Shown here: piece after piece, positions 9,028 to 44,496 of the stretch | Numbering within the stretch: position 1 is the stretch's first letter | Layout: the number at the start of each line of letters is the position of its first letter | NCBI RefSeq assembly: GCF_018555685.1 | Contig: NZ_JAFLWW010000012.1 | Span: 1 to 64,000 of the forward strand | Direction: 5' to 3' | Length of the DNA stretch: 64,000 nt | DNA from: Aminobacter anthyllidis | Lineage (GTDB): Bacteria > Pseudomonadota > Alphaproteobacteria > Rhizobiales > Rhizobiaceae | The notes under the pieces: model-generated | What the model was told of the DNA's origin: nothing | The model's input: only the letters and a program-made list of their open reading frames with translations | Databases searched by the model: none | Translations under genes and position numbers: made by a program

Positions 9028-9029
9028 CC

Positions 9030-16515: not shown

Positions 16516-17010
16516 GTGCTCATGCACGGAGCGATTGCCGTGGCGACGGCCCGGTTTGCCGCAAGCGCTAGATTTCCGCACAGCGGTCGAGGCACTCATC
16601 TCGCCTCAGTCGCGCGGGATTCAACCGCGTCATCTTCGACGTGATGGCCAGAATAGTCTTCTTCGAATGGCCCGTTTCGGACTGATGCTTCCCCCCTTCA
16701 TCTGCCATCAGCGCGAAATTCAATGCGTTTCGGCTCATTTTCGGCGTTTCGTCGAACAGGCTGCGGTTGAAGGAAAGACGTAAAGGCATTCATCTAATGT
16801 TCATAAAGTAGTTATGTGCTAAAAATATAGATATTTTACAATAATGAAAATGCAATATGTATTACAATAATTTTAATATACACTGCATTGCTGCCCCACA
16901 AATCAGGCCTTATTATTTCTCGGTGCCATTGGGACTGCATCCAGGCACCGGACACGACTTTACCTGTGAAAGGGAATTCCGTGTGTGCTGTAGAGACTGG
17001 AGGATGCGCC
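16516..17010 (+). promoter_or_regulatory. Leader with an AT-rich island (16790-16890) before the dehydrogenase operon
   Basis: After the IS91 remnant the sequence turns sharply AT-rich for about 100 bp (16795-16890), with many TA-rich runs, then returns to mixed composition. Similar AT-rich islands precede the methyltransferase pseudogene (28.35-28.47 kb) and the NRPS-PKS gene (33.59-33.69 kb). AT-rich leaders are common targets of MucR-type silencers in rhizobia; that role here is inference. No clear sigma-54 or nod-box sequence was found. Confidence 0.5.
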
Positions 17011-19963: not shown

Positions 19964-19965
19964 GC

Positions 19966-20110
19966 AACGCCACGAGACTGCCGGCCTGCCTGTTCTCGAG
20001 CGTACTCAGTTCCGGCATATCGGCGATGATTGTAAAGGCGGTGGCTTCGCCGAAACCGGGGATGCCTGTGAGGATTTCGAACGGCCGCAGAAGCGCCGGG
20101 TCGGCTGGCG
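19966..20110 (-). mobile_element. IS110-family transposase fragment
   Basis: The minus strand encodes ILTGIPGFGEATAFTIIADM followed by PELSTLENRQAGSLVAL, the conserved C-terminal (transposase_20) part of IS110 transposases. Neither the N-terminal DEDD domain nor the ends are present. It occupies most of the space between the oxygenase gene and the acyl-CoA synthetase fusion. Confidence 0.75.
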
Positions 20111-20145
20111 CGCCATGCCGTCGCTACCATCAAGGGAGTCTAATC

Positions 20146-23100
20146 TTGAACTACAATAGCGTACGGGAGAACAGACGGGAACGTCTAAAACGCATGTTAG
20201 TGCCGCAAAGTGCAGTATTCATCGGCGGAGCGTCGATTGTACCCGCCATCGACTATTGTCGAACGCGCGGATTTCGAGGAAATATCTATATTGTCAATCC
20301 TCGCCGCAATGAACTGGCGGGCATTCCCTGTGTGCCCAACGTGGGCGATCTTCCGGAGATACCGGACGTCACGTTCCTGGCTGTACCGCGAGAAAACGTG
20401 GTCGGCGTTGTACGTGAGCTATCGGGGATCGGTGTCGCAGGTGCGATCTGTAATACTTCCGGCTTCTCCGAAATGCATGGCGGAGAACAGTCACAGCGTG
20501 ACCTGGTGAAAGCGGCAGGTGAAATGCCGATAATCGGGCCGAACTGTCCGGGCGTTGCTAATTTTGCTGATCGGTCCGTTTTTATGATGGATCATTTCGG
20601 TGTCCATGACGAAAATGGCAGCGTCGCCCTCATAAGCAATGGAGGCTCGTACCTCTCCGACCTGGGCTGTTCGGACCGGTCGCTGCCGCTGGCTTACTCC
20701 ATTGGGCTCGGTAATCAGGCGATGGTAACTGTAGCCGACATTATGGATGTGGTTCTGGATGATGAACGCATTCGGGCGGTGAATCTCTATTTGGAGGGCA
20801 TTAGAGACCCGGCCGTCCTCTCCGCTGCGGCTCTCAAAGCGGCGCGCAAGGATATTCCAGTGGTCGTTATTAAGGGCGGCCGAACAAGCGCGGGTCGGCG
20901 AGCGACCGAGTCACATACCGCTTCACGAGCGGGCGATGATATCGTGACTTCCGCGCTGTTTAAGCGACTCGGATTTGTCGAGGTTCGAACTCCGACTGAG
21001 GCGTTGGAGACGCTGAAAATGCTGGTGTACGCTCCAAGGGTGAAAGGACGTCGTACGGCATTCGCAACGAGTTCGGGCTCCTATGCGGTGCTTGGCGGCG
21101 ACATCGCTGAATTTAACGGGCTTGACCTGCAGCCGCCCTCGGCTGAAGCGGCAGCAGAGCTTGAGAAATATCTGCCGCCCTTTGTTCATCCTGCCAATCC
21201 TCTCGACATCTCTTCCGGGCAAAATGCGGGCTTCGACGGAAATCTAAATATCTATCGGGCATACTTGTCGGATGATCGGGACGTGGCTCTGAGTGTGATG
21301 TGCTTCCCGCCCGAGGGCGGCTGGGATCCACAAATCTGGAACGTCACCACCCAGGCATTCGCGCAAGCAGCACGCGAGCGGCGGATGCCTGCTGCTTTTG
21401 TCAACACTTTGCCGGAAGCGTTACCGAAAAGCATTCGAGAGAGGATGATAGCGGACGGATTGGTCCCGCTGCAGGGGATGGAGGACGGGATCCGCGCCGT
21501 GTCAAATGCGGTACGCTCGTCGGAACTGGCGGATGTCCTTTCTCAAAGGACCGACGAAGAAATTCTCGTACCAACGTACCGGACTGGTCTGACCGAAGAG
21601 ATCGCTTTCGACGAGGCATCTGCGAAAGCCGAACTGGGTGCGTCTGGTATAGCGGTGCCTCGCAGTATCGTGGTGACACCAGATCAAACCGGTCGGCTGG
21701 ACGAACTTGATTTTCCAGTGGCGGTGAAGGCGCTTAGCGCAGGACTGGCACACAAAAGCGAGTTGGGTGCCGTTGTGCTGCGCCTGGGTACGCCCGAAGA
21801 GGCGTGGCAGGCCGTGCGCACGATGGCAGAGAAATTAAAGCATGTTGCCCCGGAAATCTCCATTTCGAGCTTCTTAGTGGAAGAGATGGTGAAAGATGGA
21901 GTCGGCGAGTTGCTTGTAGGCATACACCGGGTAGACCCGATGGGCCTTACCCTTACAATTGGGACAAGCGGCACGGAAGGGGAGCTCCTGCGCGATACTG
22001 CCACGATCCTGTTGCCCTCCTCGCGTGCTATGATTGCCGAGGCCCTGCGCAGTCTAAAACTGTTCCAACTGCTTGACGGTTGGCGAGGCCGGACGAAGGG
22101 CGATGTCGAAGCGGCGGTCGACGTCATCCAAAAGTTTGCCCAGTTCGCCATCTCAAAAGGGGAGCGGTTCGTCGAAGCCGAAATCAATCCGCTGATCGTG
22201 CGCCCCATGGGGCAGGGGGCGGTCGCCGTCGATGCGGTAATGCGTCTTGCCCGGCATCAGCTGGCCCAGCGCATAAGCATCTTAACACATAAGATAAGTG
22301 AAATGGGTTTGCCTACATCAATCACTTCCCGACTGCGCATTCCCTTGATCTCGGCACCGATGCAGCATGTATCAGGCCCTGAACTCGTTTCTGCGGTTTG
22401 CCGGAAGGGAGCTATAGGAGCTTTTCCAACCCTCAATGCGCGCTCGCCGGAAGAGCTTGACCAGTGGCTGTCTAGGATAGAAAAAGCTTGTGCTGAGTCC
22501 GACGATATCTCAGCGCCGTTCTGCCCCAACATCGTGATGCGTAGATCATCTGAGGCCCTTCAGGCCGACGTGGATGTTCTGGTCAAGCACCGGGTCAAGA
22601 TTGTGCTCGCAAGCGTCGGATCGCCTGAGGCAATCATCCCCCAGCTGCATGATGTTGGATGTACCGTCCTGACAGATGTCGCCACTATGCGGCATGCGGA
22701 AAAAGCGATCAGAGTGGGTGCCGATGGTCTGGTACTTCTGAGCGCAGGGGCAGGAGGACAGACCGGCTGGCTGAACGGCTTGTCTTTTGTCAGGGCGGTA
22801 CGCTCGATTTATGACGGGCCGGTGGGGCTCGCGGGCGGTCTGTCCGACGGGCATGCGCTTTGGGCAGCACGGGTGCTGGGATGCGACTTCGGCATGATGG
22901 GTACACGTTTCATCGCAACGCATGAGAGCCTGGCGCCGCAGGGTCACAAGCAAATGGTGGTCAATGCAGGCATCGATGACATATTGCTAACGAAGGCAAT
23001 TAACGGATTCGATGCCAATTATCTACGCCAGTCTATCTTGGACGTCGGGCTCGATCTGGCCGAGCTGCAAATACCGCTAAGCGTTGATGAGGCAAGGAAG

Positions 23101-23349
23101 AGGTTCAGCGCCGATCTTGCTGGAACAGGGCCGAAGCGATGGACCGATATTTGGAGCGCCGGTCATACAGTTTCCGCCGTCTCCGAAATCCAATCAGCGG
23201 GGGAGGTGGTGGACGAGATTGCCGATGAATATCACACAGCTATGGGCGAGACTGGCGCGTTAGTGAGCGCTGCCGAGCCGGCGGCACAATCGGCGATCGG
23301 AGCGCGGGATCAACGCAAGAGGCCACGGAAGAAACGTGGGGGCGGGTGA
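20146..23349 (+). CDS. Fusion of NDP-forming acyl-CoA synthetase with a nitronate-monooxygenase-like flavin domain
   Basis: This single 1067-residue protein has two enzymatic parts. Residues about 10-705 are an NDP-forming acyl-CoA synthetase: a CoA-binding domain (AVFIGGASIVPAIDYCR), succinyl-CoA-ligase-like domains (ESHTASRAGDD), then an ATP-grasp domain from about 482 (VAVKALSAGLAHKSELGAV, ending EINPLIVRP). Residues about 724-1030 are a 2-nitropropane-dioxygenase-like TIM barrel (IPLISAPMQHVSGPELV, GADGLVLLSAGAGG, GTRFIATHES). The common AGGH catalytic His position reads AGGQ here. TTG 20146 is chosen because AAGGGAG sits 7 nt upstream. The C-terminus is basic. The pairing suggests coupled activation and flavin-dependent oxidation of an acid, but the substrate is unknown. 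Confidence 0.85.
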   Translation: MNYNSVRENRRERLKRMLVPQSAVFIGGASIVPAIDYCRTRGFRGNIYIVNPRRNELAGIPCVPNVGDLPEIPDVTFLAVPRENVVGVVRELSGIGVAGAICNTSGFSEMHGGEQSQRDLVKAAGEMPIIGPNCPGVANFADRSVFMMDHFGVHDENGSVALISNGGSYLSDLGCSDRSLPLAYSIGLGNQAMVTVADIMDVVLDDERIRAVNLYLEGIRDPAVLSAAALKAARKDIPVVVIKGGRTSAGRRATESHTASRAGDDIVTSALFKRLGFVEVRTPTEALETLKMLVYAPRVKGRRTAFATSSGSYAVLGGDIAEFNGLDLQPPSAEAAAELEKYLPPFVHPANPLDISSGQNAGFDGNLNIYRAYLSDDRDVALSVMCFPPEGGWDPQIWNVTTQAFAQAARERRMPAAFVNTLPEALPKSIRERMIADGLVPLQGMEDGIRAVSNAVRSSELADVLSQRTDEEILVPTYRTGLTEEIAFDEASAKAELGASGIAVPRSIVVTPDQTGRLDELDFPVAVKALSAGLAHKSELGAVVLRLGTPEEAWQAVRTMAEKLKHVAPEISISSFLVEEMVKDGVGELLVGIHRVDPMGLTLTIGTSGTEGELLRDTATILLPSSRAMIAEALRSLKLFQLLDGWRGRTKGDVEAAVDVIQKFAQFAISKGERFVEAEINPLIVRPMGQGAVAVDAVMRLARHQLAQRISILTHKISEMGLPTSITSRLRIPLISAPMQHVSGPELVSAVCRKGAIGAFPTLNARSPEELDQWLSRIEKACAESDDISAPFCPNIVMRRSSEALQADVDVLVKHRVKIVLASVGSPEAIIPQLHDVGCTVLTDVATMRHAEKAIRVGADGLVLLSAGAGGQTGWLNGLSFVRAVRSIYDGPVGLAGGLSDGHALWAARVLGCDFGMMGTRFIATHESLAPQGHKQMVVNAGIDDILLTKAINGFDANYLRQSILDVGLDLAELQIPLSVDEARKRFSADLAGTGPKRWTDIWSAGHTVSAVSEIQSAGEVVDEIADEYHTAMGETGALVSAAEPAAQSAIGARDQRKRPRKKRGGG

Positions 23350-24967: not shown

Positions 24968-25216
24968 ATGTCAGACCTTGAAGATCTGCAGAAGAAGGTT
25001 CGCAAGCTGCAGTCGCGTGCGGGAACTGCAAAGATGGAATTGCACGACCTTGCCGACGACCTCCCGATCAACTGGACCGAGATCAAGGCGATCGCTGAAA
25101 AAACATTCGATGTTTTTGCCGAGTTCGATGCGGCCAAGACAGAACTCGCTAACTTGGAGAGTTTCACGATGACGACATCACATGCGACCGCTCCAGATGG
25201 ATGCCGGAATATCTGA
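24968..25216 (+). CDS. DUF683 (CCE_0567-type) NifX-associated protein
   Basis: This small helical protein of 82 residues begins MSDLEDLQKKVRKLQSRAG and keeps the family core AKMELHDLADDLP-NW, followed by a second helix. Members form coiled-coil hairpins and are found almost only in nif operons next to nifX and fdxB. The body is intact. The last 16 residues (MTTSHATAPDGCRNI) look like the start of fdxB read in this frame, so the original stop was probably lost. The gene is isolated from the rest of the nif machinery, and whether it still functions is doubtful. Confidence 0.75.
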   Translation: MSDLEDLQKKVRKLQSRAGTAKMELHDLADDLPINWTEIKAIAEKTFDVFAEFDAAKTELANLESFTMTTSHATAPDGCRNI

Positions 25217-25380
25217 CGGCTATCGATGGCCCGCCCTGCATTGGCTGCGGCCGCTGCTTCAAGGTCTGCTCGCGCGAGATCGCGCTCCGTTACTGGGGCG
25301 ATGAAGCGGGTGAAATCCTCGGCGTCTGCGACGGCGAGGACGACGACTTCGATGGCGAGCTCAATCGTATGATCATGAAT
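25169..25380 (+). pseudogene. fdxB: fdxB (nif-specific ferredoxin III) truncated relic
   Basis: The frame from 25201 encodes MPEYLTAIDGPPCIGCGRCF followed by KVCSREIAL and GEILGVCDGEDDDFDGELNR, the characteristic first half of nif ferredoxin III with one CxxCxxCxxxC cluster motif. The usual start (MTTSHAT at 25169) is in another frame, so a frameshift lies between. After NRMIM the sequence departs and the second cluster motif is missing. The reading frame continues meaninglessly into the MFS gene. Confidence 0.75.
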
Positions 25381-28699: not shown

Positions 28700-29394
28700 A
28701 ATACCCTTGATCAACGTACCTCATTGGAGCAAGCCCGCACGAAGGCGCATCAAGCATTGCCATGCCCTCGACGGCGATGCCGGTCGCTTAGCCCACTTCT
28801 ATCGCGGATGGGCGAGTTCTTATGACCTGTATGTTGGCCGTGAGGGGTACTGCGGGTCGACGGTCGTTGCGCAACTGGCGGATGCCGTGCAGGCAGCGTA
28901 TTTGGCCAATGGGCGAGCAGCCATCGCAATCCTGGACCCTGGGTGCGGAACAGGTCTCGTGGGCGTGCAGTTGAAGCGCCTCGGTTTCCATTTGCTCGAC
29001 TGGTTCGACCTCTCCGAGGAGGAGATGGCGGGCAAGGCTCTGAAAACTCGCGTTTATAGCCATGTCCGAAGCGATGTCGACCTAGACGAGCCGCTCTCCG
29101 ACTACTCCAGTACGACTTATGACATTACGGGTCTGCTGCGGCGTCTTCACGCTCGGGCACGCCCGATCGGACGCATGCGCGAACTGGCTCGCGTCACGCG
29201 CCCCAACGGATTCATCAGAGCAAGCACTCGCAAGAGCTGTACGGTGGCTAAATCCTTTGAAGATGAGGTGCGGTCTCTGCAGGATGAGGGCGTGCTTGTG
29301 ACGGCACGGTGTCTATACGACGGCAGATTCATCGCGGGGGGAGGGACTAGGGTTTTCCAAGCGCCCGATAGGGACAGCGCACCGGCAGGATAGC
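28697..29394 (+). pseudogene. Degenerate duplicate of the SAM methyltransferase
   Basis: It aligns along its whole length with the 18330-19037 methyltransferase: MNTLDQRTSLEQ start, HFYRGWASSYDLYVGREGY, ILDPGCGTGLVGVQLKRLGF, RELARVTRPNGF. Frameshifts near 28735 and around 29125-29165 break the frame. In motif I the Ala of LDAGCG is Pro. The ATGA coupling with the dehydrogenase tail is kept, so this was once the same operon. Confidence 0.85.
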
Positions 29395-29439
29395 GCAATT
29401 CGGATGGGAAAGGCGCAAGTGCCGAATAGGGCCGGCGCC

Positions 29440-29730
29440 TGCAACCGTCGTATCGGATATTTTGCTTCCCGCATGAGGATGGCAGCGTCCAATCGTTCCG
29501 TACCTGGTCTGGCTATCTTCCCAAACGTCGAGCTGATCTGCGTCGACTTTCTGGGGCGCGGTAGCCGAACAGCTGAGACCGCGATCCGGAGCATGGATTT
29601 GCTAGTATCCGCTGTCACTGAGGCGCTTCGCGGATATGTCGACCGGCCTTTCATCTTCTTTGGTCATAGTACGGGTGCCTCGTGGCTTACGCGGTCGTCC
29701 GCTCGCTTGAGTGCTCCGGTAGTCATCTTA
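29440..29730 (+). pseudogene. Thioesterase fragment homologous to the NRPS-PKS N-terminus
   Basis: VELICVDFLGRGSRTAETAI and VTEALRGYVDRPFIFFGHST correspond to VELICLDLPGRGKRSAEAAI and VTEALRGYNDRPFVFFGHSV at the N-terminus of the 34.1-kb synthase, with clear DNA similarity. The frame degenerates on both sides of this core. It directly follows the methyltransferase copy, showing that the two gene families were once neighbours. Bases 29731-29979 carry nothing recognisable. Confidence 0.75.
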
Positions 29731-29979: not shown

Positions 29980-31129
29980 ATGGGAGTACTCAGAGGCGTT
30001 AAGATCATCGAAATGGTTGGGATGGGGCCGGGACCATTTTGCGGCATGCTGCTTGCCGACTTAGGGGCTGACGTGATTGCGGTGGAGCGCCCAGCCAAAG
30101 ATGCAGGCGCTCCACGACCTTGGTCGATATGCAGTCGTGGGAAGCGCTCAATCGTGCTGGATATAAAGAAGCCGGGAGCAGTGGACACGTTCTTAGAACT
30201 GATCGACGGGGCCGATGCCCTGATCGAAGGCAATCGCCCAGGGGTTATGGAACGCCTCGGGATAGGGCCAGATGTCTGCCTCGCCCGTCGCCCGTCATTA
30301 GTTTACGGTCGGATGACCGGTTGGGGGCAGTATGGTCCTCTGTCGAAGGCTGCAGCACACGACGCCAATTACATTGCTCTTTCCGGCGCTCTATGGTTCG
30401 CGACCCAGCCTGGCCAGCCACCTGAAGCACCCCCCACAATCCTAGGCGATGTAGCCGGAGGGGCGCTCTATCTAGCCGTTGGCATTCTCGCCGGAATTCT
30501 CCGGGCTAGACAGGATAGCACTGGGCAGGTGATTGATGCAGCTATGGTTGATGGCTCGGCTCACTTGTTGAACCTCTTGGTGTCGTTTCTTCCTATCGAC
30601 TACGACCTCTCCATTGCAAACGCCCGGCCAGGGGCTCTCGGGAAGCATTTCGACCGTACTTACGTCTGCTCAGACGGTGAGTGGATTGTTCTGCAGGCTA
30701 TGGAGCCCCAATTCTACGTTTAGCTTATCAGACGTCTTGGCCTCGATCACGATGAGCGCTTCGCCGAAAGTCAAAGAGGAAACCCGAACGTTTGGGGGCC
30801 GCTCGGAGATGAGCTCGCCGCGCTATTTAAGACCAAAACCCGAGCGGAATGGACTGAGTTGCTTGAAGGCACCGATACCTGCTTCGCGCCTCTTCTATCC
30901 ATGCCAGAGGGCTGCTGTGCACCCACATATGGTGGCCCGCGACGTTTACCGAACTGTCGACGGTGTGTTGCAGGCCAACGCCGCTCCGCGCTTTTCAGCG
31001 ACACCGTCGCCTGAACTGACCTCTATACCAGCCCTCGGAGTGCACACCACAGACATCATATCCGAGCTTGGCCACAACGAGGATACGATCGAGAGCCTGA
31101 GTCGCATGGGCGTCCTAGGATCCTCGTAA
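29980..31129 (+). pseudogene. CaiB/BaiF family (class III) CoA-transferase or alpha-methylacyl-CoA racemase, broken
   Basis: A full-length family III CoA transferase is readable: GVLRGVKIIEMVGMGPGPF, ADLGADVIAVERP, the catalytic Asp region HDANYIALSG and GQVIDAAMVDGSA. The frame hits a TAG at 30721-30723 and continues after it (LIRRLGLDHDERFAE, LLEGTDTCFAPLLSMPE). A frameshift near 30905 leads to HMVARDVYRTVDGV and GVHTTDII in another frame. Two lesions make it a pseudogene. The general branch resembles alpha-methylacyl-CoA racemase. Confidence 0.82.
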
Positions 31130-34091: not shown

Positions 34092-37000
34092 ATGGAACAA
34101 GTTCGCGAGAAAGTTACAGCATTACTGAGCATCGTAAAGAGATCATTTGACCCATCGTATCGCATAATTTGCTTTCCTCACGGGGGCGGTAGCGTCCAGT
34201 CGTTCCGTACTTGGTCTGACTATCTCCCCGATGACGTTGAGCTTATTTGCCTGGATCTTCCCGGGCGCGGCAAACGGTCAGCGGAGGCTGCCATCTGCAG
34301 CTTGGACGTACTAGTACCCATGGTCACTGAGGCGCTGCGCGGGTACAACGACCGGCCTTTTGTTTTCTTCGGTCATAGCGTCGGTGCCCTCTTCGCTTAT
34401 GAGATCGCCCGTTCCCTGGAGAAGGCCGGTCGGCCATCTCCCTTCCATGTCGTCGTGTCTGCTCACAAGTCGGCGGTTGTGCCGGCGGATGAGCCGCCAA
34501 TGTATAGATACGTGGATGATAAGTTAACCGATGTGGTCCGGATCCTTGGCTTGGTCCCCAAGGAGGCGCTGGCAAATGAGGAACTCCTGCATAACTTCAT
34601 CTTGCCGCCGTTGCGGGCCGACTTCGAACTTGCGGAGACGTACGACCGGGACTTACCAACGCCTCTCGACGCGGCGATCACCGCAATTGGGGGAGTGCAA
34701 GACGAAACGGTCAATGCCAATGACCTAGACGAATGGCGTCGGCTTACGACGTCGCGCTTCGCCCGGATTATGTTTGATGGTGATCATTTTTATACCCATT
34801 CCATGACGGCGGAAGTGGTATCTACCCTCCTACGTGAAGTTGGGGAGGTAAAGGCACAACTCCCAGCTTCCATTCGAATTGGCGAGGCCCTACCTTATCC
34901 CGAACTACCACTGCATGACCAATTTCGCAAACAAGCGGCCCTCAATCCGGAGGCCCCTGCCGTCGTCTCAGAGAATAGGGTCTTGACGTACCGTGAGCTC
35001 GACGACCTGAGCGAGATTCTATCCAGGAACCTCCTCGGACATGGTCAGAGCCGAGGTTCCCGCGTGGGTATTCTGATGGATACTTCACCTGAATACGCCG
35101 TCGCGCTGTTTGGTATTCTTAAGACAGGGGCGGCTTACGTCGTGCTTGAAAAAGCGCAGCCCATGGTTGCGCTACGGCGGATACTTGAGAAGGCATGCGT
35201 TGAAATCGTTGTCACCAACAACCGCTTCGCAGCTAAGGTTCCGCCTGACTGGTCCGGTATTGCGCTGTCGCTCGACGAGGGTTGGGAAGCACAACTAGGC
35301 AAGGCCAGCCCGGCCAATCCCCAAGCGGTGGATCTCGATGCGCCGGCCCAGATTGTATTTTCGTCTGGCACGACTGGTGAACCGAAAGGGGTCGTCTGCC
35401 CTCACCGAAGCGCTGTATCCTCTCATCAGTGGCGCTATTGCGCGCTGCCGTATGCGCCTGATGAGCGCGAGGCGGTCAATCTCTTCTTAGTCTGGGAGAT
35501 AATGCGGCCGATCCTCGCCGGGATTCCAGCCTATCTGATCCCTGACGACGTTATCTACGATCCGCACCAGCTGGTCGACTACCTGGAACGAAATCGAATC
35601 TCCAGAACATTACTAACGCCTTCACTGCTAGATGTGCTTCTCAGCAGCGGTTCCCTCGACGTGCCCTCTCGCCTTCCGGATCTCCGATTGATTTACTTAT
35701 CAGGCGAGGTGACAACAGCAGCGTTGCTTGCGCGTGTGATGGACGCGCTGCCGCACGTCAGAATCATCAATTACTACGGCGCAGCGGAGGCACATGATGT
35801 CGCGCATATTGACCTGAGTGAGATCGATCCTGCGACAACACAAAAGGTTGTACCGGTCGGTTCGCCTCAGCACAATGTCAGTGCCTATATCCTCGGGGAG
35901 CAACGCGACCCCGTACCGCTGGGCTTCTTGGGTGAGGTCTTCGTCGGCGGCGATTCATTAGGTCATGGATATCTCAACAGCCCGGAGATGACACGGGAAA
36001 GGTTCTTTCCTGACCCGTTCAACGTTGATGGCAAGATGTTCCGCACTGGCGATCTTGGCCGCATGCTGCCCGGTGGCCAATTAGAGATTATCGGGCGCTG
36101 CGCTTTCATGGTGAAGATCCGAGGATATAGCGTCGTCCCCGCGTCTATAGAAGCTGCTTTGCTTCGGTACTCCGACGTCTGCTCCGCCGCGGTTGTGCCG
36201 GAGCTCGATCCGACTACCGGTCAGACTGATCGACTGATCGCCTATGTAGTCTTGCGGAATCAGTGCAAGGGGTGGCAGGCTTCTTTGCAGGCGCATTTGA
36301 AGTCTGAGGTGCCGCACTACGCAGTCCCGTCAGAGTTTATTGCTCTGAGGGAATTGCCCATTGCGGCCAACGGGAAACTTGATCGGTCGCGCCTCCGCAA
36401 TATCGCACAAGAGGCCTGCACTCCAGTCACAGGTGCCGACGAGGTCGATGCGGTACTTCGCGCAATCTGGCGCGACCTACTCAAGGCTGAACCCGCTGAT
36501 CCGACCGACAACTTTTTCGACTGCGGTGGACACTCCCTTCTGGCTGCCCGTCTCTGCACGCAGCTTCGTGGGAGTCTGAAGGTGGAGCTCCGCGTCGTGG
36601 AGGTCTTCCTCAATCCGACTTTTAAAGAACTCGCGGCTCTTATCCGCAAGCGCGGTGGCGTGCAGGGACGTCCCCCAAACCGGAAGCTCTCCAACATACC
36701 GAAAGCCTTGGCGGGCAGGGCGCATCTGAAGGCGTTCGACGGGCGACGCGGCCCCGGTATGGACATTGCGGTGATTGGTATGGCCGCGCGATTCCCCGGC
36801 GCGGATACAGTCGATGCACTCTGGGAAAACCTTTGCCAAGGGGTCTGCTCGATCGCCCCGCTCTCCGCGGACGAACTCAAGGCGCGGGGCGTTCCGGAAG
36901 CTGTCCTGAAGCGCTCCGATTATGTGCGGGTGGGCGCCCATCTCAACGGTGTGGACCTTTTCGATCCGGGTTTCTGGGACCTGTCGAGCCATGAGGCAAC

Positions 37001-40000
37001 GTTAATGGACCCACAGCATCGCCTGTTTCTCGAATGCTGCTGGAAGGCGCTCGAGTCGGCCGCATATGCGCCAACCGAGCATGAGGGCCGGACCGGGGTA
37101 TTCGCAGGTTCGTACCTCCCACTCTATCTCCTACACCATTTGAAAGGGGGCGACCTCATAGATCCCAACAACGCGCCGCTCGCTTTGCTGACGGAGCTCG
37201 GCAACGACAAGGATTATCTTGCCTCGCGCGTTTCCTACATGCTGAACCTCAACGGTCCAAGCATCGCAGTCCAAACCGCATGTTCAACTGGGCTGGTGGC
37301 AATCGGGGTTGCCACTCAGTCACTCGCGGCCGGCTATTGCGACATGGCGCTGGCAGGCGCGGCGAGCATCAACTTTCCCCAAGCAGGTTATCAGTATGTC
37401 GAGGGCTTCATCAATTCCTCGGACGGTGTGTGCCGAGTGTTTGATGCTGATGCGAAGGGCACGGTGATTGGAGATGGGGTGGGGGTCGTTGTCCTTAAGC
37501 GCCTTGAAGAGGCCCTCGCGGCGGGCGACCCGATTCAAGCAGTGATAAAAGGATGTGCCATTAACAATGATGGCCGCAACAAGACTTCCTACTCAGCGCC
37601 CAGCGCGGGAGGCCAGACCGCTGTTGTGCGCCAGGCACTTGAGTCTGCAGCGCTCGGCGCTGAAGACGTGGAATATATCGAAACTCATGGAACCGGCACT
37701 AAGGTCGGCGACCCGATCGAGATCCGCGCACTGGCCGAAGTTTTCGCGGGGCGAGAGGAAACGGGACACGCCTGTGCACTCGGGTCAATTAAACCGAATA
37801 TTGGCCATGCCAATGCCGCCGCCGGGGTTGCGAGCTTTATCAAGGCCGTACTCGCCCTTCAGCACGGGGTAATCCCCCCGACCATCAACATCAACAGGCT
37901 GAACGGAGATCTGGGCCTGGAGAACACGCCCTTCTTCGTCAATGAGCAGCTTAGACACTGGCCTCGGCCGCAGGGACGACCGCGAACTGCCGGAGTCACC
38001 GGCCTCGGTATAGGCGGAACCAACTGCCATGTTGTTCTGCAGGAATGGACTGGTGAGAACGCAAGGGATTGGCCCGGCTCGGTCGAGCGGGGGTCCTACG
38101 CCCTTTGCCTATCCGCAAAGACGCCGTCGGCGCTAAGCCGGGCCTGCCGGAATTTCGCCACGTTCCTACGGCGCTACCAGGATGTCGATCTCGGTGACGT
38201 CGCGCATACCCTCCGGGTGGCGCGATGCCATTTCGATCATCGGACGGTCGTTGTGGCGCGCAACTTGGACATGGCCATCAAGAGGCTGGAGGAAGAGGCT
38301 GATCGCGCGGGTGATCAAGCCCTGTCCTCACCGTCGATTGCGTTCATGCTGCCGGGCGGTGGAGTCCAGCACGCAGGCATGTTCAAGGATCTGTTTGATC
38401 ACGTTTCTGACTTTCGCGAGGCGTTTCTGACTTGTGCCGCCGCTAGTCGCCCCGTCCTGGATCGTGATCTGGAGTCACTCGTGTTTGGGGAGAACGAAGG
38501 CTACGCGACCGCATCCTTCGAAGAAATCAACGTCATGATCTTCTCCGTGCAGTACGCTCTGACACAACTGCTCGAAGCGTGTGGCGTGCGTCCCGACTAC
38601 CTTGTCGGACACAGCATGAGCGAATACGTCGTGGCCACGCTAGCGGGCATTTTGAAACTGAACGACGCCATAGCTCTAATGGTCGCCCGTGGTCGTGCGA
38701 TGGCGAATCTTGGTGTCGACGGTGCTATGCTTGCGGTGAGATGCGGCCCCGAGGAGGCTAAACGCATTCTCGAGGAGGACGTTTGGCGTGACTGGGCCGA
38801 AGCTGGGGAGATCACTGTCGGTGTCGTGAACTCCAAATCCAGTGTAGTGTTTACGGGGAAACGGGAACTGATTGAAAAACTTCATAAGGAGCTCGAAAAA
38901 GCAGAGGTTCCCAACCAGATCCTCAACACAGCTGGCGTCCCCAGCCATTCTCCGCTGATGAAACCGGCGGCTGATATGATTGACGCACATGTCCGCACGC
39001 TCAAGAAACGAGTACCGGACCTGCCCATCGCTCTGAATTCAGGAGGATATCTGCACCGGGCGAAAGTGCCTCTGACCGAGACCTACTGGAGTAGGCAAGC
39101 AAGTGGAACGATCCGATTCGATCGGTCTCTCGCGGCTGTCGTCGCGGCCGGTGCAACCGTGCTCGTCGACGTTGGCCCCTCGTGCAATCTGACGCGTTTC
39201 GCACATGAAACAATCAATTCAGAGGCTCCTAAGATTAGAATTCCGGTAGTCGTTTCAGCCGCGCAAGGGAAGGATGACCAGGAGTTCACCGACCGTCACG
39301 TTCTTCTGGAATGTCTTGGGAATCTCTGGTCCTTGGGTGTTTCGGTGGATTGGAAACGAGCCAGTGATCAATTGGAACCGTTCGGTTCTCGCCGCAGGAT
39401 CTCGCTTCCGACATACTCGTTTGATCGCCACCGTTGCTGGCCGGAGGGTCAGCCTGCCGGCTTGACGGTTCTGCCGAAGACCGAAGAGCGTGAGCGGCGC
39501 AGGGGAGAGGTGTTCACCTATGCCCAGAGTTGGACGGAGAAAATGCTTTCCCGCACGGTTCCGGGCGACGGAGGCACAAAGGCGCTTCGTTGGCTGGTGC
39601 TTGCCGACCGGCCGTTTGGTGAGGCAGAGCGTGCGGGAGACATGCTGGCGAATAGCATCACGCGACTGTTGGAGGATGCTGGTCATGAGGTTGTTCGTGT
39701 TTGCCGACGAGCCAAACCCTCGAACCCACCCATGAAAGTCAAAGGGTCTTTCATCATGATTGACCCCACCCGAGAAGGCCTGAAGGCGCTCTTCGACACC
39801 GAGATCGCCTCGGAGCGTCCCGTTGATCGGATTCTCTGCCTCTGGCACCTGAGCGGCTGCGCTGACGCGTCTGGGGACCCGGGCACGGTGCAGACCGATC
39901 TTTTGCGGAGCTACGACGCGATACTCGATTTGGCGCGAGTTCTCTCTCCACTGACGTTCCGGAGTCCGCTTGATGTCTGGATTGTTGGTGACCGGATGGT

Positions 40001-41345
40001 CCAGGTCGGCGACGAAGCTGTGGATCCCGAAAAGGCATGCGTCTTCGGCCCCGCTATCGTGCTGCCGCAGGAGAACCCGATGGTCGATTGTCGGGTTGTT
40101 GACCTGAACGTCGACGACCCAATAATCGCCGATCGGCTCGCTGCTGAAATCCGGCGTGATGAGCCTGATCCCGAAGCGGTCGTCGCGCTCCGTGGGAACC
40201 GGCGATGGGTGCCGCATTTTCCCGAGATGGTCCTCGCGGAAAAGACTCCCGGAGGCGGGGAGGTCCTCCGACCGGAAGGCGTCTATCTGATCACAGGAGC
40301 TCTTGGAAAGATCGGGCTTTCCTTGACTGAACATCTTGTAACCGTTGGAGCGACGGTCATCGCGATAACCCGCCGTGCGGTACCTGCCACTTTGGACTGC
40401 AAGTCCGCAGATATCGATGACTGTGGCTGGATGCGCCGATTGACCGCGCTTGACAACGCAAAGGGGCGGGTGATTCTTCACCAGGCGGACGTATCCGATT
40501 TCAACAACCTTTCGGGCGTGCTCGACGCGACGGTTCGGAGGTTCGGGCGGATCGATGGCATCTTTCACGCCGCCGGATTAGCCGATCTGAAGTTCCTTTC
40601 AGAGATGGAGGACACGACCTCCGCCAATGAGTTCGCCTCCAAAATCGTGGGAACGCGCAACCTCTACAGTGCGATCCAGCGAATGCAGTCCACCCACGCC
40701 CAATCCCCCGAGTTTGTGTTCCTTTTCTCATCCGTTGCATCCATCCTAGGCGGACCGGCGATGGCCGCTTATGCGGCGGCCAACAGGTTCATGGACGCAT
40801 TTGCACGCCAGGTGCAGGCCAAACTCGGCGTCCGGTGGATCAATTCCAACTGGGATGACTGGGATTACGCCTACGACGAGGGGCAGGTGACCTCCGCCTA
40901 CGCGACGTCTAAAGCGAGGGATCTTGCACTGTGTCCCGACGAAGGAATTGACATCATCGAACGCATCCTGGCAACCGTCGACAACAGCCAAGTGATCATA
41001 GCGACGCGGCCCTTGCCTCCTCGATTAAGGCAATGGAGCGAGCAAGGTCGGACAATAGCGAACTACGGCCCAGGCATATCTTCGCCGAAAGAAGTCGGAA
41101 AGGTGGAGGAGGACGCTCAAAGCGACGATCTGAAGGAGGCCTTCCTCAGCGAAGTGAAATCTCTATTGAAGGTCACGGAGATAAGATTCGAAGATAACTT
41201 CTTCGACCTTGGGGGAGATAGCCTTCTCGCCACAGCACTCCAACTTCGGTTGAATAATAGCGACCGCTGGAGGCCGCCTCGACTGAACGAGATCTTTAAG
41301 GCTGCAAACTTTAGCGATCTCTACGAGAGAATCTGCCAGACATGA
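34092..41345 (+). CDS. Hybrid NRPS-PKS megasynthase (TE-A-T-KS-AT-KR-ACP)
   Basis: This 2417-residue assembly-line enzyme has the following domains. An N-terminal type-II-like thioesterase (about 20-250) carries GHSVG with Ser96. The adenylation domain (about 270-765) has SSGTTGEPKG near 424, RTGD and a final NGK. A thiolation domain has Ser815 (GGHSL). The ketosynthase (about 890-1318) has Cys1064, His1199 and His1239. An acyltransferase follows (about 1416-1700, Ser1508 in GHSMSEY). The ketoreductase (about 2060-2260) has TGALGKIG and Tyr2227-Asn2231. The acyl carrier protein has Ser2377 (GGDSL). All catalytic residues are present. The A domain lacks the usual Asp of the FDxS motif (it reads NLFLVWE), so the starter is probably not a normal alpha-amino acid. 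Expected chemistry is starter activation, one extender unit and ketoreduction to a beta-hydroxy thioester. It is followed by a partner NRPS and a PPTase. Confidence 0.92.
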   Translation: MEQVREKVTALLSIVKRSFDPSYRIICFPHGGGSVQSFRTWSDYLPDDVELICLDLPGRGKRSAEAAICSLDVLVPMVTEALRGYNDRPFVFFGHSVGALFAYEIARSLEKAGRPSPFHVVVSAHKSAVVPADEPPMYRYVDDKLTDVVRILGLVPKEALANEELLHNFILPPLRADFELAETYDRDLPTPLDAAITAIGGVQDETVNANDLDEWRRLTTSRFARIMFDGDHFYTHSMTAEVVSTLLREVGEVKAQLPASIRIGEALPYPELPLHDQFRKQAALNPEAPAVVSENRVLTYRELDDLSEILSRNLLGHGQSRGSRVGILMDTSPEYAVALFGILKTGAAYVVLEKAQPMVALRRILEKACVEIVVTNNRFAAKVPPDWSGIALSLDEGWEAQLGKASPANPQAVDLDAPAQIVFSSGTTGEPKGVVCPHRSAVSSHQWRYCALPYAPDEREAVNLFLVWEIMRPILAGIPAYLIPDDVIYDPHQLVDYLERNRISRTLLTPSLLDVLLSSGSLDVPSRLPDLRLIYLSGEVTTAALLARVMDALPHVRIINYYGAAEAHDVAHIDLSEIDPATTQKVVPVGSPQHNVSAYILGEQRDPVPLGFLGEVFVGGDSLGHGYLNSPEMTRERFFPDPFNVDGKMFRTGDLGRMLPGGQLEIIGRCAFMVKIRGYSVVPASIEAALLRYSDVCSAAVVPELDPTTGQTDRLIAYVVLRNQCKGWQASLQAHLKSEVPHYAVPSEFIALRELPIAANGKLDRSRLRNIAQEACTPVTGADEVDAVLRAIWRDLLKAEPADPTDNFFDCGGHSLLAARLCTQLRGSLKVELRVVEVFLNPTFKELAALIRKRGGVQGRPPNRKLSNIPKALAGRAHLKAFDGRRGPGMDIAVIGMAARFPGADTVDALWENLCQGVCSIAPLSADELKARGVPEAVLKRSDYVRVGAHLNGVDLFDPGFWDLSSHEATLMDPQHRLFLECCWKALESAAYAPTEHEGRTGVFAGSYLPLYLLHHLKGGDLIDPNNAPLALLTELGNDKDYLASRVSYMLNLNGPSIAVQTACSTGLVAIGVATQSLAAGYCDMALAGAASINFPQAGYQYVEGFINSSDGVCRVFDADAKGTVIGDGVGVVVLKRLEEALAAGDPIQAVIKGCAINNDGRNKTSYSAPSAGGQTAVVRQALESAALGAEDVEYIETHGTGTKVGDPIEIRALAEVFAGREETGHACALGSIKPNIGHANAAAGVASFIKAVLALQHGVIPPTININRLNGDLGLENTPFFVNEQLRHWPRPQGRPRTAGVTGLGIGGTNCHVVLQEWTGENARDWPGSVERGSYALCLSAKTPSALSRACRNFATFLRRYQDVDLGDVAHTLRVARCHFDHRTVVVARNLDMAIKRLEEEADRAGDQALSSPSIAFMLPGGGVQHAGMFKDLFDHVSDFREAFLTCAAASRPVLDRDLESLVFGENEGYATASFEEINVMIFSVQYALTQLLEACGVRPDYLVGHSMSEYVVATLAGILKLNDAIALMVARGRAMANLGVDGAMLAVRCGPEEAKRILEEDVWRDWAEAGEITVGVVNSKSSVVFTGKRELIEKLHKELEKAEVPNQILNTAGVPSHSPLMKPAADMIDAHVRTLKKRVPDLPIALNSGGYLHRAKVPLTETYWSRQASGTIRFDRSLAAVVAAGATVLVDVGPSCNLTRFAHETINSEAPKIRIPVVVSAAQGKDDQEFTDRHVLLECLGNLWSLGVSVDWKRASDQLEPFGSRRRISLPTYSFDRHRCWPEGQPAGLTVLPKTEERERRRGEVFTYAQSWTEKMLSRTVPGDGGTKALRWLVLADRPFGEAERAGDMLANSITRLLEDAGHEVVRVCRRAKPSNPPMKVKGSFIMIDPTREGLKALFDTEIASERPVDRILCLWHLSGCADASGDPGTVQTDLLRSYDAILDLARVLSPLTFRSPLDVWIVGDRMVQVGDEAVDPEKACVFGPAIVLPQENPMVDCRVVDLNVDDPIIADRLAAEIRRDEPDPEAVVALRGNRRWVPHFPEMVLAEKTPGGGEVLRPEGVYLITGALGKIGLSLTEHLVTVGATVIAITRRAVPATLDCKSADIDDCGWMRRLTALDNAKGRVILHQADVSDFNNLSGVLDATVRRFGRIDGIFHAAGLADLKFLSEMEDTTSANEFASKIVGTRNLYSAIQRMQSTHAQSPEFVFLFSSVASILGGPAMAAYAAANRFMDAFARQVQAKLGVRWINSNWDDWDYAYDEGQVTSAYATSKARDLALCPDEGIDIIERILATVDNSQVIIATRPLPPRLRQWSEQGRTIANYGPGISSPKEVGKVEEDAQSDDLKEAFLSEVKSLLKVTEIRFEDNFFDLGGDSLLATALQLRLNNSDRWRPPRLNEIFKAANFSDLYERICQT

Positions 41346-41460
41346 TCCGCCAGCCCGCAATAGCCGTGGAAACAACGGGGGGCATACATGCCCTGCAATG
41401 CTATCTGTCACATCTGGCAAGACATGCGGACAACTGCTCGATTCACATCGACTGGACTTG
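41342..41460 (+). other. Original coupled start of the second synthase gene, now out of frame
   Basis: An ATG at 41342 overlaps the megasynthase stop (ATGA) and begins MIRQPAIAVETTGGIHALQC, which would be a translationally coupled partner. Near 41460 the sequence changes abruptly to GC-rich NRPS DNA in a different frame. The downstream protein must therefore use another start (ATG 41388). Confidence 0.5.
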
Positions 41461-43802
41461 CGCCGCGGGGCGCGGTCGAGACGGCGCTGGCGCAGATCTG
41501 GGCGGAGCTTCTCGGTGTCGAGCGCATCGGGCGCCACGACAACTTCTTCGAACTCGGCGGACATTCCCTGCTGGCCGTGCAGCTGCTCAGCCGGCTGTCG
41601 CGGGCTGTTGGGGTCGAACTGCCGCTGACTAGGCTGTTCGCCAGGCCGGTGCTTTCCGATCTGGCCGAAAGCGTCGTCGAGGTGTTGAGCCGCTCCGGTC
41701 CGCAAGACCTGCCGGCGATTGTTGCCGTATCGCGCAATGAGCCGCTTGTGCCCTCGTTTGCGCAGCAGCGGATATGGTTTTTGCCGCAGCTGGACGAGGG
41801 CAGTACCAACTATCATATTCCGCTGGCCTTGCGGCTGCGCGGCGTGCTCGACCGCAGCGCCTGGCAGCGCAGCCTTGACCGTCTGTTTGCCCGCCATGAG
41901 GCGCTGCGCAGTGTCTTTGTCGCGTCGGAGGGCAAGCCGCGGGTTGAGGTTCTGCCGCCGGAGGCAGGGCTGCCGGTGCTGGAGCACGATCTGCGGGACA
42001 GGCCGGATGCAGAGGCGGCGCTTCTCAATGTTTATGGACCTACTGAGGCAACGATTGACGCGACGGCCTGGGTGTATTCCGCTGGATTAAACAGGCCAGT
42101 TGTCCCCATCGGGCGTCCGATTGCGAACACGCGGGTGTATCTGCTGGATGCTCATGGTGCTCCTGTGCCGTTCGGGGCGGTGGGCGAGCTTTACATTGGC
42201 GGGGCGGGTGTTGCGCGTGGTTACCTGAACCGGCCCGAGCTGACGGCTGAGCGGTTTTTGGCCGATCCGTTCAGCGATGAGACCGGCGCCCGGATCTACA
42301 AGACCGGCGACCTGGCGCGCTATCTGCCGGACGGCAATCTGGAGTTTTTGGGCCGCAACGACGACCAGGTGAAGATCCGCGGCTTCCGCATCGAGCCGGG
42401 CGAGATCGCGGCGCGGCTCATCGAGCACGCCTGGGTGCGCGAGGCGGTGGTGGTGGCGCGCCAGGACCGGGCCGGCGACAAGCACCTTGTCGCCTATGTC
42501 GTGTGCGCGCCGGAGGCCGGCTCGGACGACGACGATGGAGACGGGCTTGCCGTCGCCTTGCGCGCGCATCTGGCCAGCCTGCTGCCGCACTACATGGTGC
42601 CGTCGGCGTTCGTGCGGCTGGCGGCGCTGCCGCTGACGGTGAACGGCAAGCTCGACCGCAAGGCGCTGCCGGCCCCCGACGACGAGGCCTATGCGCGCAC
42701 CGCCTATGAGGCGCCGCAGGGCGCGGTCGAGACGGCGCTGGCCGGGATCTGGGCAGAGCTTCTCGGTGTCGAGCGGGTCGGGCGCCACGACAACTTCTTC
42801 GAACTGGGTGGCCACTCGCTCCTGGCGGTGCAGCTACTCAGCCGAGCATCAGATCTTGGCCTGAATTTTAGCGCTGCCGATGCCTTCCAGGCCCCAGTTC
42901 TAAAGGACCTTGCATCGAAGGTTCATTTGGAGCCACAGCCCAGCAGTGCGGGAGTGATTTCCGTTCAAGCAACCGGATCGCAGCCACCGCTGTTCTTTGT
43001 TCCCACAGGTTTCGGCGATTGTTCCTATGTCGTCAGTTTGGTTAAGGAAATGAATGTAGACTGTCCCGTCTTTGCTTTGCCATGGCCGTCTTTCGATGAA
43101 GCTCGTCCACTGACCCTTGAAGCGATTGCTGACACGGTCATCTTGGAAATCAAAGAAATTCAGCCCCACGGTCCATACCGCTTCGCAGGATATTCGTCGG
43201 GCGGCATCCTCGCCTACGCCATAGCCCAGCGCTTACTGGCCCTGGATGAAACCGTGTCCTTCATGGCGTTCATCGATGTTACGTTATTTGCGAATCGATC
43301 GAGCATGTCCCCCTCTCTGATCGTCCGAAACATGGTGTTGGAGCGTTTCGAATCGTTGAATGATGAAACCTTCGAAGTTTTGAAACGCTTTGCTGGACAA
43401 TGTTCAATTGCTCAGCTGATTGAAAAGGCGAAGAGAATTGGGGCGATACCTCCGGATCGTGATCTCCACGATGACATTCTGATGTCGGAAAGAACCGCCC
43501 AATTTCATAGGGCATTGCAGGCGTATCAAGTTCCGTCCCTGCCAATCGAGATACATCAGTTCTATGCCATGGAGCCTCTCATCAGCCGTCGGATACCACC
43601 TGATAAAGCCTCAACAGGCCCAGAGGCTCGTTCGCCTATGCGCGGCTGGGACCGAGTCTTGAGTCCGGAGGCTATTACTGCCGTACCGATTGTAGGCGAC
43701 CACGTGACGATGATCTCGGATCGCGACAATCCCCAAATGTCGGAGAGTTCTGGCTCGGTGATCCAAAGATGGGAAGCATATTTGGTCTGCCGCCGCTGCT
43801 GA
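41388..43802 (+). CDS. Collapsed NRPS module: T-(C/A hybrid remnant)-T-TE
   Basis: This 804-residue protein has an odd domain order. A thiolation domain carries Ser60 (GGHSL). Only the first about 95 residues of a condensation domain follow (VPSFAQQRIWFLPQLDEGST), without the HHxxxDG motif. At about residue 211 the frame jumps directly into the second half of an adenylation domain (NVYGPTEATIDATAW to NGKLDR), without the A3 P-loop. A second thiolation domain (Ser477) and a C-terminal thioesterase (GYSSGG, Ser603; His772) complete it. It can therefore neither activate nor condense in the normal way; carrier and release functions remain possible. Bases 41465-42845 are distinctly more GC-rich than the thioesterase part, implying a recombined insert. 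The start at 41388 has a G-rich Shine-Dalgarno but is not certain. Confidence 0.85.
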   Translation: MPCNAICHIWQDMRTTARFTSTGLAPRGAVETALAQIWAELLGVERIGRHDNFFELGGHSLLAVQLLSRLSRAVGVELPLTRLFARPVLSDLAESVVEVLSRSGPQDLPAIVAVSRNEPLVPSFAQQRIWFLPQLDEGSTNYHIPLALRLRGVLDRSAWQRSLDRLFARHEALRSVFVASEGKPRVEVLPPEAGLPVLEHDLRDRPDAEAALLNVYGPTEATIDATAWVYSAGLNRPVVPIGRPIANTRVYLLDAHGAPVPFGAVGELYIGGAGVARGYLNRPELTAERFLADPFSDETGARIYKTGDLARYLPDGNLEFLGRNDDQVKIRGFRIEPGEIAARLIEHAWVREAVVVARQDRAGDKHLVAYVVCAPEAGSDDDDGDGLAVALRAHLASLLPHYMVPSAFVRLAALPLTVNGKLDRKALPAPDDEAYARTAYEAPQGAVETALAGIWAELLGVERVGRHDNFFELGGHSLLAVQLLSRASDLGLNFSAADAFQAPVLKDLASKVHLEPQPSSAGVISVQATGSQPPLFFVPTGFGDCSYVVSLVKEMNVDCPVFALPWPSFDEARPLTLEAIADTVILEIKEIQPHGPYRFAGYSSGGILAYAIAQRLLALDETVSFMAFIDVTLFANRSSMSPSLIVRNMVLERFESLNDETFEVLKRFAGQCSIAQLIEKAKRIGAIPPDRDLHDDILMSERTAQFHRALQAYQVPSLPIEIHQFYAMEPLISRRIPPDKASTGPEARSPMRGWDRVLSPEAITAVPIVGDHVTMISDRDNPQMSESSGSVIQRWEAYLVCRRC
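41470..41593 (+). repeat. Direct repeat copy 1 within the first thiolation domain
   Basis: About 110 of 124 bases match 42721-42844, both encoding GAVETALA-IWAELLGVER, GRHDNFFELGGHSLLAVQLL. The offset is 1251 bp, a whole number of codons. It is a substrate for homologous recombination between modules. Confidence 0.8.
42721..42844 (+). repeat. Direct repeat copy 2 within the second thiolation domain
   Basis: This is the partner of 41470-41593. Immediately after it the composition falls back to that of the native locus and the second thioesterase begins, so the repeat marks the right border of the GC-rich insert. Confidence 0.8.
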
Positions 43803-43884: not shown

Positions 43885-44496
43885 ATGGAGACTATCACCA
43901 TTGATCAACAGAACATCCTCGTCGGCATCCGTCCAATAGAACCGGGCGACGAATCCACCTTATACGATTCCGAAGTTACCTCGTTGGGACGCGCTGTTAC
44001 CAAAGTTCGCCGCCAAAGCGGTGCTGCAAGAGTAGTCGCCAGAACACTCCTTGGGCAACTGGGATTCCCACTATTGCCGATTCTAAAGACGCGCTCTGGT
44101 GTTCCGATCTGGCCACCCGGCGTCGTCGGATCTTTGGCGCACCACGATACCGTAGCCGCCGCCGCCATTGCAGGGACGAAAAGGATTGCGGCTCTCGGCA
44201 TCGACATTGAGCCTAATGAACCTCTGCCGGAGAACCTGATCGAATTGATTGCCACCCCTAACGAGCAACGCATGTACGATCTACATCTGCTCAAGCGGCG
44301 GGACCTCTTCGTTTTGAAGGAGGCGGTATATAAAGCGTATTTTCCACTGCACAATCAGTCCATTGAATTCCAGGACGTGGAAATTGATATCCCTGCGCGG
44401 TTAGGACACGTGTCGAAGGCAAATTGCACGTTTTCGCTCGAGTTACTTATTTCCAACAATGTAATCGGGTTGGCGTATTCATGGCCGACAAGGTGA
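43885..44496 (+). CDS. 4'-phosphopantetheinyl transferase (Sfp/EntD type)
   Basis: This enzyme transfers phosphopantetheine from CoA to the serine of carrier domains. Its 203 residues contain the PPTase motifs: GVPIWPPGVVGSLAHHD (72-88), GIDIE with Mg-binding Asp107 and Glu109, and LFVLKEAVYKAYF with the Lys145-Glu146 pair. It starts 83 bp after the second synthase gene on the same strand and most probably activates Ser815 and Ser2377 of the megasynthase and the carriers of the partner. It is the last gene of the synthase operon; IS debris follows. Confidence 0.92.
   Translation: METITIDQQNILVGIRPIEPGDESTLYDSEVTSLGRAVTKVRRQSGAARVVARTLLGQLGFPLLPILKTRSGVPIWPPGVVGSLAHHDTVAAAAIAGTKRIAALGIDIEPNEPLPENLIELIATPNEQRMYDLHLLKRRDLFVLKEAVYKAYFPLHNQSIEFQDVEIDIPARLGHVSKANCTFSLELLISNNVIGLAYSWPTR

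Follow-up and report, generated by a model that had tools for sequence, protein, structure and literature searches.

A thioesterase-first NRPS-PKS family as a candidate for carnitine synthesis in bacteria, with a mobile version in rhizobia

The synthase gene and its domains

The window analysed here is a 64,000-nucleotide stretch of the Aminobacter anthyllidis genome (NCBI RefSeq assembly GCF_018555685.1, contig NZ_JAFLWW010000012.1, positions 1 to 64,000 of the forward strand). It carries a gene for a hybrid of nonribosomal peptide synthetase (NRPS) and polyketide synthase (PKS) that begins with a thioesterase (TE). The gene is a single ATG-started open reading frame (ORF) of 2417 amino acids, which spans exactly 34092-41345. 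Pfam domains follow along its product in the order TE, adenylation (A), thiolation (T), ketosynthase (KS), acyltransferase (AT), ketoreductase (KR) and acyl carrier protein (ACP), and the ORF together with these domains establishes the order read by an initial annotation of the window. The matches are Thioesterase at residues 24-246 (E 3e-39), AMP-binding at 278-628, AMP-binding_C at 686-762, ketoacyl synthase at 891-1267, acyltransferase at 1418-1720 and KR at 2063-2255. PP-binding matches two stretches, the best at 788-851, and the second one must contain Ser2377. All eight active-site residues named in the initial annotation (Ser96, Ser815, Cys1064, His1199, His1239, Ser1508, Tyr2227 and Ser2377) are present at those positions, and the KR is intact. 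The gene and its domains are as follows, with the basis of each call in brackets.

34092..41345, + strand: TE-first hybrid NRPS-PKS gene, 2417 aa (ORF, Pfam, orthologues, dN/dS)
34161..34829, + strand: N-terminal thioesterase domain, type II TE-like, proposed to release the product (Ser96 and His232 in 14/14 aligned rhizobial copies)
34923..36377, + strand: adenylation domain; A4 region shortened, FDxS motif lacking, Asp569 at what we take to be position 330 in GrsA numbering (Pfam, alignment)
36453..36644, + strand: thiolation domain, Ser815 (Pfam, alignment)
36762..37892, + strand: ketosynthase, Cys1064, His1199, His1239 (Pfam, alignment, tree)
38343..39251, + strand: acyltransferase, Ser1508, motif VPSH (Pfam, alignment)
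40278..40856, + strand: ketoreductase, Ser2213, Tyr2227, Asn2231 intact (Pfam, alignment)
41124..41321, + strand: C-terminal acyl carrier protein domain, Ser2377, borders approximate (Pfam, alignment)

The TE carries the GHSxG motif and the catalytic His of a type II thioesterase, has free-standing TEs as its nearest kin and is joined ahead of the A domain in the same reading frame. Apart from seven orthologue records, the best 40 of 591 records matched by this domain mostly bear the names alpha/beta hydrolase or thioesterase II, so that the earlier description of a type II-like TE fused in front is a fair label. A search of the genome itself (6.7 Mb, 30 contigs) found no second full copy of the synthase, and a degraded start only, at 29.4-29.7 kb of the window.

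Orthologues in rhizobia and purifying selection

Orthologues occur in Mesorhizobium, Sinorhizobium and Azorhizobium doebereinerae, with 76-82% identity over the main aligned stretch and lower identity (47-58%) at the carrier-domain end of those without a KR. Seven plasmid records (at least 60% identity) and eleven genome loci hold an orthologue, giving 15 distinct loci besides the window (individual loci are numbered with the prefix L); L020 and L021, additional to the eleven genome loci, gave weak or partial matches only. Nine congeners (E 1e-200) and the 246 other genomes of a family sample (E 1e-250) yielded no orthologue. The gene is rare, accessory and common to several genera, and therefore fits a horizontally moved gene.

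Fourteen rhizobial copies including the window were aligned, and the frameshifted genes L015 and L027 were left out of this alignment and of the estimates of the ratio of nonsynonymous to synonymous substitution rates (dN/dS). The catalytic residues of TE, T, KS and AT are invariant in all 14 copies. Ser2377 is kept in 13, the exception being L019, whose row was cut ahead of its stop codons. Of the 10 aligned copies retaining a KR, 7 have Tyr at residue 2227. Between the window copy and its 13 relatives, dN/dS is 0.14-0.27 in the TE, 0.18-0.30 in the A domain, 0.14-0.18 in the KS and 0.15-0.28 in the linker-AT part; it is 0.20-0.32 in the KR (nine relatives with KR), 0.12-0.27 in the ACP (12 relatives) and noisy in the short T domain (0.11-0.61). 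Since orthologues exist and dN/dS is 0.14-0.32 in TE, A, KS, AT and KR, the domain layout is not a product of chance, and its conservation is established.

Distant relatives and their linked genes

Six TE-first proteins were found outside the rhizobia (L041, L042, L043, L049, L050 and L051). A phylum sample of 398 genomes yielded L041 and L042, an order sample of 297 genomes yielded L043, and a family search around L043's genome gave four matches among 103 genomes, all in one genus and three of them new (L049, L050, L051). Searches around L041's genome returned only L041 itself (1/5 and 1/48 genomes), and a class sample of 385 genomes held no further TE-first match at E 1e-200; such strict E cut-offs will have passed over more distant or fragmented members. 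Over the main aligned stretches, the six proteins share 35-46% identity with the window protein. All domains of L041 were recognised by Pfam with the TE first, and those of L043 and L049 by alignment and motifs. L050 has no AT, L051 is truncated within the synthase by the end of its contig, and in L042 what looks by eye like a second TE sits between AT and KR. The AT-less synthase of L050 (5268-11561, 2098 aa), from the genus of L043, may depend on an AT supplied in trans, or its missing domain may be an artefact of assembly. At the L042 locus (8995-18362), a TauD-family dioxygenase is encoded two genes downstream of the synthase.

All TE-first proteins form one clade, both in the tree of A domains (support 100/100; 25 rows, five of them outgroup) and in that of KS domains (100/97; 31 rows, 12 of them outgroup), which establishes the family as monophyletic. 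Within it the rhizobial copies group with the methyltransferase-linked members described next, leaving L042 outside (85/80 in the A tree, 97/92 in the KS tree); long branches were flagged in both trees, L042 above all, and the inner order is unsure.

The neighbours of these relatives are equally well established. A glycine/sarcosine N-methyltransferase (GSMT) and a sarcosine/dimethylglycine N-methyltransferase (SDMT) each stand beside the synthase in five of the six non-rhizobial members, and a choline/carnitine acyltransferase does so in four. The two GSMTs scanned score 465 and 476 bits with NF051855 (cut-off 350), and BLAST places the other three at 84-87% identity to that of L043. The two acyltransferases scanned match PF00755 at E 2e-146 and 2e-166, and the other two are 76-77% identical to that of L043. 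Each of the four acyltransferases shows DRH(L/M), with Arg, and GRT, with Thr, as does carnitine acetyltransferase, whereas choline acetyltransferase has DNHL and GRV; we take these two positions to bear on specificity. The best solved structure for the L043 enzyme is carnitine acetyltransferase (341 bits versus 303 for choline acetyltransferase). For the L041 enzyme, choline and carnitine acetyltransferases score alike (198 versus 196 bits), and therefore the residues alone decide the carnitine type there. Judged by mechanically taken ORF starts, the gap from synthase to acyltransferase is 0 bp in L043 and 31 bp in L050, the start overlaps the stop in L049, and in L041 the synthase, GSMT and SDMT are 20 and 3 bp apart.

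A proposed route to carnitine

Carnitine was proposed before the distant relatives had been found, on the strength of an unusual A pocket, one KS-AT-KR extension, the TE and dehydrogenase genes near some synthases. We infer the substrate, the order of steps, the release by the TE and the product as follows. The A domain would activate a small amine-bearing acid, ancestrally glycine betaine, and load it onto the T domain, while the AT would put a malonyl-type unit on the ACP. The KS would join both to 3-dehydrocarnitinyl-ACP, the KR would reduce this to carnitinyl-ACP, and the N-terminal TE, as the sole release domain of the chain, would hydrolyse it to free carnitine. GSMT and SDMT would supply betaine from glycine in the methyltransferase-linked relatives, and the carnitine acyltransferase there would consume the product; rhizobia might draw betaine from the plant or from choline oxidation. 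A path from glycine through betaine and carnitine to acylcarnitine would explain both the synthase and the linked genes at the relatives' loci, and we are confident that the methyltransferase-linked clade makes carnitine, as far as gene content and residues can tell. For the window enzyme the balance tips slightly towards this cycle running on betaine or something closely related to it, which would give carnitine or a close analogue with a changed starter or a substituted extender. That its product is carnitine itself is a more tentative suggestion. The reduced amino- or hydroxy-acid polyketide of the initial annotation is compatible with the picture from the relatives and far vaguer.

Release by the TE has a competitor in the usual role of the type II TE family, which is proofreading. 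Membership in that family would suit a TE that merely clears a mis-loaded T or ACP, with the product leaving through another enzyme or a further megasynthase, such as the partner named in the initial annotation. We regard this as improbable. Neither another TE nor a downstream module was found to be conserved together with the synthase, and the supposed partner is a deleted relic with a relative at 1/15 other rhizobial copies.

Specificity of the rhizobial enzymes

Several observations weigh against carnitine as the rhizobial product or against the strength of the linkage, and they are gathered here with the evidence that they qualify. In the A domain, all 14 aligned rhizobial copies retain Asp330 and Phe236; the frameshifted L015 has Glu at 330. 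The shortened A4 region is a family trait, two residues shorter still in L019 and L026, and owing to it the assignment of positions 235/236 is uncertain. Against this, the Asp322 of the methyltransferase-linked clade is found in 0/14 rhizobial copies (Y, H, N, S or C instead), and position 239 varies among W, G and R. Position 301, like 322, is changed in rhizobial copies only. A perfect betaine aromatic cage in all rhizobial A domains, which we had considered, is weakened by the variation at 239 and 322. The AT motif is (V/I)PSH in all 14 rhizobial copies and xAFH in none of them, whereas the malonyl-type xAFH is found in all three methyltransferase-linked members that have an AT. The starter or extender of the rhizobial enzymes may thus have shifted, and because both the A pocket and the AT motif depart from the pattern of the relatives, we word the window product as carnitine or a close analogue.

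The linked genes of the relatives set further limits. Neither the window nor the 15 other rhizobial stretches (9.7-37 kb) hold a GSMT, SDMT or carnitine acyltransferase, and L042 is without any of them. The SDMTs score under their curated cut-off (321 and 371 versus 550). As four of the five linked members belong to one genus, the linkage is seen in two independent lineages only; gene order differs between the two.

The KR is lost or lacks its catalytic Tyr in 8/16 rhizobial loci, being absent from four, with Phe for Tyr in two and His for Tyr in two (one of them the frameshifted L015). The Phe-type KR is still conserved (dN/dS 0.18 between its two copies), which argues against simple decay. 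A group of short-chain dehydrogenases/reductases (SDRs; cluster 7) lies near 4/8 KR-dead loci and 0/8 other loci. It is only suggestive of a trans-acting reductase for the KR-dead copies, as SDRs are common and flank lengths differ. The KR family motif is mostly LADL-like without the A-type Trp, and under the LDD rule for KR stereochemistry these motifs leave the configuration undecided.

A linkage to carnitine-related genes is found in the rhizobia as well. Six complete replicons carrying the synthase were searched with the L-carnitine-dehydrogenase-like family NF005471 (E 1e-45 or better), and seven copies were found. Within 5, 7 and 20 kb of the synthase lie 2/7, 4/7 and 5/7 copies (random-placement p per copy 0.012, 2e-5 and 4e-5), or, counted per replicon, 2, 3 and 4 of 6 (p 0.010, 5e-4 and 1e-4). 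These distance limits were picked after seeing the data, and at the 5-kb limit the linkage per copy is weak. All the dehydrogenases fall under the curated cut-off of NF005471 (0/11 genomes or records above it), one of 14 control genomes also matched the search, and two of the six replicons are without such a dehydrogenase. The window's own contig holds no dehydrogenase or BKACE match at the cut-offs used; the BKACE-dehydrogenase pair of this genome is on a different contig. In M. ventifaucium a BKACE and dehydrogenase pair lies ~9-10 kb downstream of the synthase, on a contig matched by coordinates. L-carnitine dehydrogenase is the best family for the copy in L022 and the two copies in L025, and the S. 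numidicum dehydrogenase fits PRK06129 better (214 versus 185 bits). Two dehydrogenases compared with solved structures are nearest to lambda-crystallin and to a pyridine-carboxylate dehydrogenase. Such enzymes act on free acids, which suits a TE-released product.

These data bear directly on the possibility that the rhizobial branch has switched job. It would then use another small acid with a positive charge or NH group, perhaps with a methylmalonyl-type extender, to make a beta-hydroxy amino acid (beta-keto where the KR is dead) unrelated to carnitine metabolism. The rhizobial-only changes at positions 301 and 322, the variation at 239, PSH in place of AFH and the repeated KR loss would all fit such a switch, and so would the absence of GSMT, SDMT and carnitine acyltransferase from the rhizobial stretches searched and the variable neighbours, for example ATP-grasp, SDR, methyltransferase and CoA-ligase genes. 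Given the retained Asp330 and Phe236, and the carnitine-dehydrogenase-like and BKACE genes close by on several replicons, we consider such a switch rather unlikely.

Regulation gives the carnitine reading no help. No sigma-54 site was found in 16 upstream stretches (up to 700 bp), the window's included. NifA-like TGT-N10-ACA matches occur in 3/16 of these stretches and single ATC-N9-GAT matches in 4/16, none of them convincing, and nif or nod regulation of the synthase was dropped for want of a convincing promoter or NifA/nod-type site. Synthase genes are broken at three loci (L015, L019 and L027), a further point on the negative side. The window copy itself might be a decaying mobile gene without current function, in keeping with these broken copies, the degraded second copy in the same window, a transposase gene nearby and the lack of a recognised symbiotic promoter. 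However, the 7.25-kb ORF is intact, no catalytic residue is missing and dN/dS is low (0.14-0.32) in the catalytic domains, which makes decay improbable.

Genes surrounding the synthase

Three further features of the window touch the synthase or its supposed pathway.

28707..29711, + strand: second-copy remnant, a METTL27-like methyltransferase with the degraded beginning of the same synthase gene behind it (aligned part 29445-29711)
41388..43802, + strand: internally deleted NRPS end (T - C start / A end - T - TE), not a partner (Pfam, BLAST identities)
43885..44496, + strand: 4'-phosphopantetheinyl transferase (PPTase) (Pfam; relatives at five other synthase loci)

The 804-aa neighbour at 41388..43802 consists of a T domain, ~75 residues of the start of a condensation (C) domain, the end of an A domain, a T domain and a TE. 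Two segments of it, residues 25-215 and 212-781, correspond to a 25-kb NRPS/PKS gene of Mesorhizobium mediterraneum. They are 88 and 91% identical, respectively, to residues 1157-1347 and 2002-2569 of the part of that gene that was fetched, and relative to it ~655 residues are deleted in frame between the two segments. A relative above 45% identity occurs at one of the 15 other rhizobial copies (L009, split in two ORFs), counted in the fetched stretches, some of them short. The in-frame deletion and the origin from a different rhizobial NRPS rule this gene out as a pathway partner. The PPTase of the window shares 93% identity with the one encoded behind the same M. mediterraneum gene, so that this copy probably came along with the other NRPS cluster. 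The same PPTase family is found at five other synthase loci (62-87% identity among themselves), a second PPTase at three, and a third PPTase-like gene, seen by eye only, upstream in L019; a PPTase is thus a frequent companion of the synthase. The view that partner and PPTase complete a small, self-contained pathway does not hold, given the deleted partner and the kinship of the PPTase with that other cluster. Large NRPS/PKS genes with a terminal T-TE and their own PPTase are carried by M. mediterraneum (L052, 1-8615) and many rhizobial plasmids, and it is the deleted end of such a gene that sits in the window.

The symbiosis-type setting assigned by the initial annotation holds. The nif relics are real and small, comprising a CCE_0567 match (24968-25162) and a truncated fdxB fragment (25177-25377) ~9 kb upstream of the synthase gene. 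A run of genes at 14164-23349 encodes an enoyl-CoA hydratase, a 3-hydroxyisobutyrate-dehydrogenase-like protein, a METTL27-like methyltransferase, a 2OG-Fe(II) oxygenase and an ADP-forming acyl-CoA ligase fused to nitronate monooxygenase, and parts of it recur by other synthase loci. METTL27-like methyltransferases lie at 18330-19037 and 28707-29393 of the window and at 7271-7969 of L053. In L016, L024 and L013 (the last only 38% alike) such a gene precedes the synthase by at most ~250 bp, and in Sinorhizobium fredii GR64 a relative is found close to nif genes and acdS. The gene at 29980-30723 was considered as a carnitine CoA-transferase and is a weak candidate, L-carnitine CoA-transferase ranking sixth at 66.6 bits against a cut-off of 413. 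A defence-system reading was set aside, with no PADLOC match at E 1e-30.

Known systems and significance

Eukaryotes make carnitine from protein-derived trimethyllysine without an assembly line, using two dioxygenases, trimethyllysine hydroxylase and gamma-butyrobetaine hydroxylase. The TE-first synthase would reach the same end product from a different start and with different enzymes. Among the open-licence literature matches listed, we recognised no report of carnitine made by an NRPS or PKS, which is a weak negative. A 2022 paper states that bacteria cannot synthesise carnitine de novo (PMC9666466) and cites Meadows and Wargo 2015 for this. The nearest parallel for the proposed first step is ATRR, the glycine betaine reductase of fungi and nematodes, whose NRPS-like A domain puts glycine betaine on a T domain; ATRR then reduces the thioester to choline through two R domains, whereas here the KS would extend it (PMC11050029). 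A characterised cluster of the same architecture was looked for and not found. The N-terminal-TE layout is already known, having been published as uncharacterised in 2025 for Entotheonella T-GCF-03, with identical architecture in >50 diverse, mostly eukaryote-hosted bacteria (PMC12858407). The likeness to the window family is one of architecture by description alone, and the accessible part of that paper proposes no substrate or product.

An operon of Rhizobium etli 8C-3 (L028) resembles the TE-first gene in starter activation, a single PKS extension, KR and TE, and its KS is the next to join the TE-first clade in the KS tree (85/76). It differs in its C-terminal TE and in a methyltransferase (MT) domain in cis, and is not TE-first. 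A glycine-betaine-type binding protein gene (OpuAC) lies between the KS-AT-KR-T-TE and A-MT parts, and the A code, read by eye, is what we take to be a glycine signature. The operon (7983-17451 of L028, on a plasmid) could be an independent route to N-methylated gamma-amino-beta-hydroxybutyric acid (GABOB) or carnitine.

We tentatively propose that the TE-first family is a de novo carnitine synthase, which on one polypeptide would combine glycine betaine and malonyl-CoA, probably in host-associated bacteria. The symbiosis replicons of rhizobia would hold a mobile, evolving version that turns plant betaine into carnitine or a 2-substituted or keto analogue, in some cases beside breakdown genes; this would be akin to the private exchange of a nutrient in nodules, as with rhizopines. 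If this is true, bacteria possess an assembly line for a central metabolite of eukaryotes that has no enzyme in common with the eukaryotic route, and an architecture known from sponge symbionts may gain a product. Rhizobia would hold a horizontally moving relative of a carnitine-making line.
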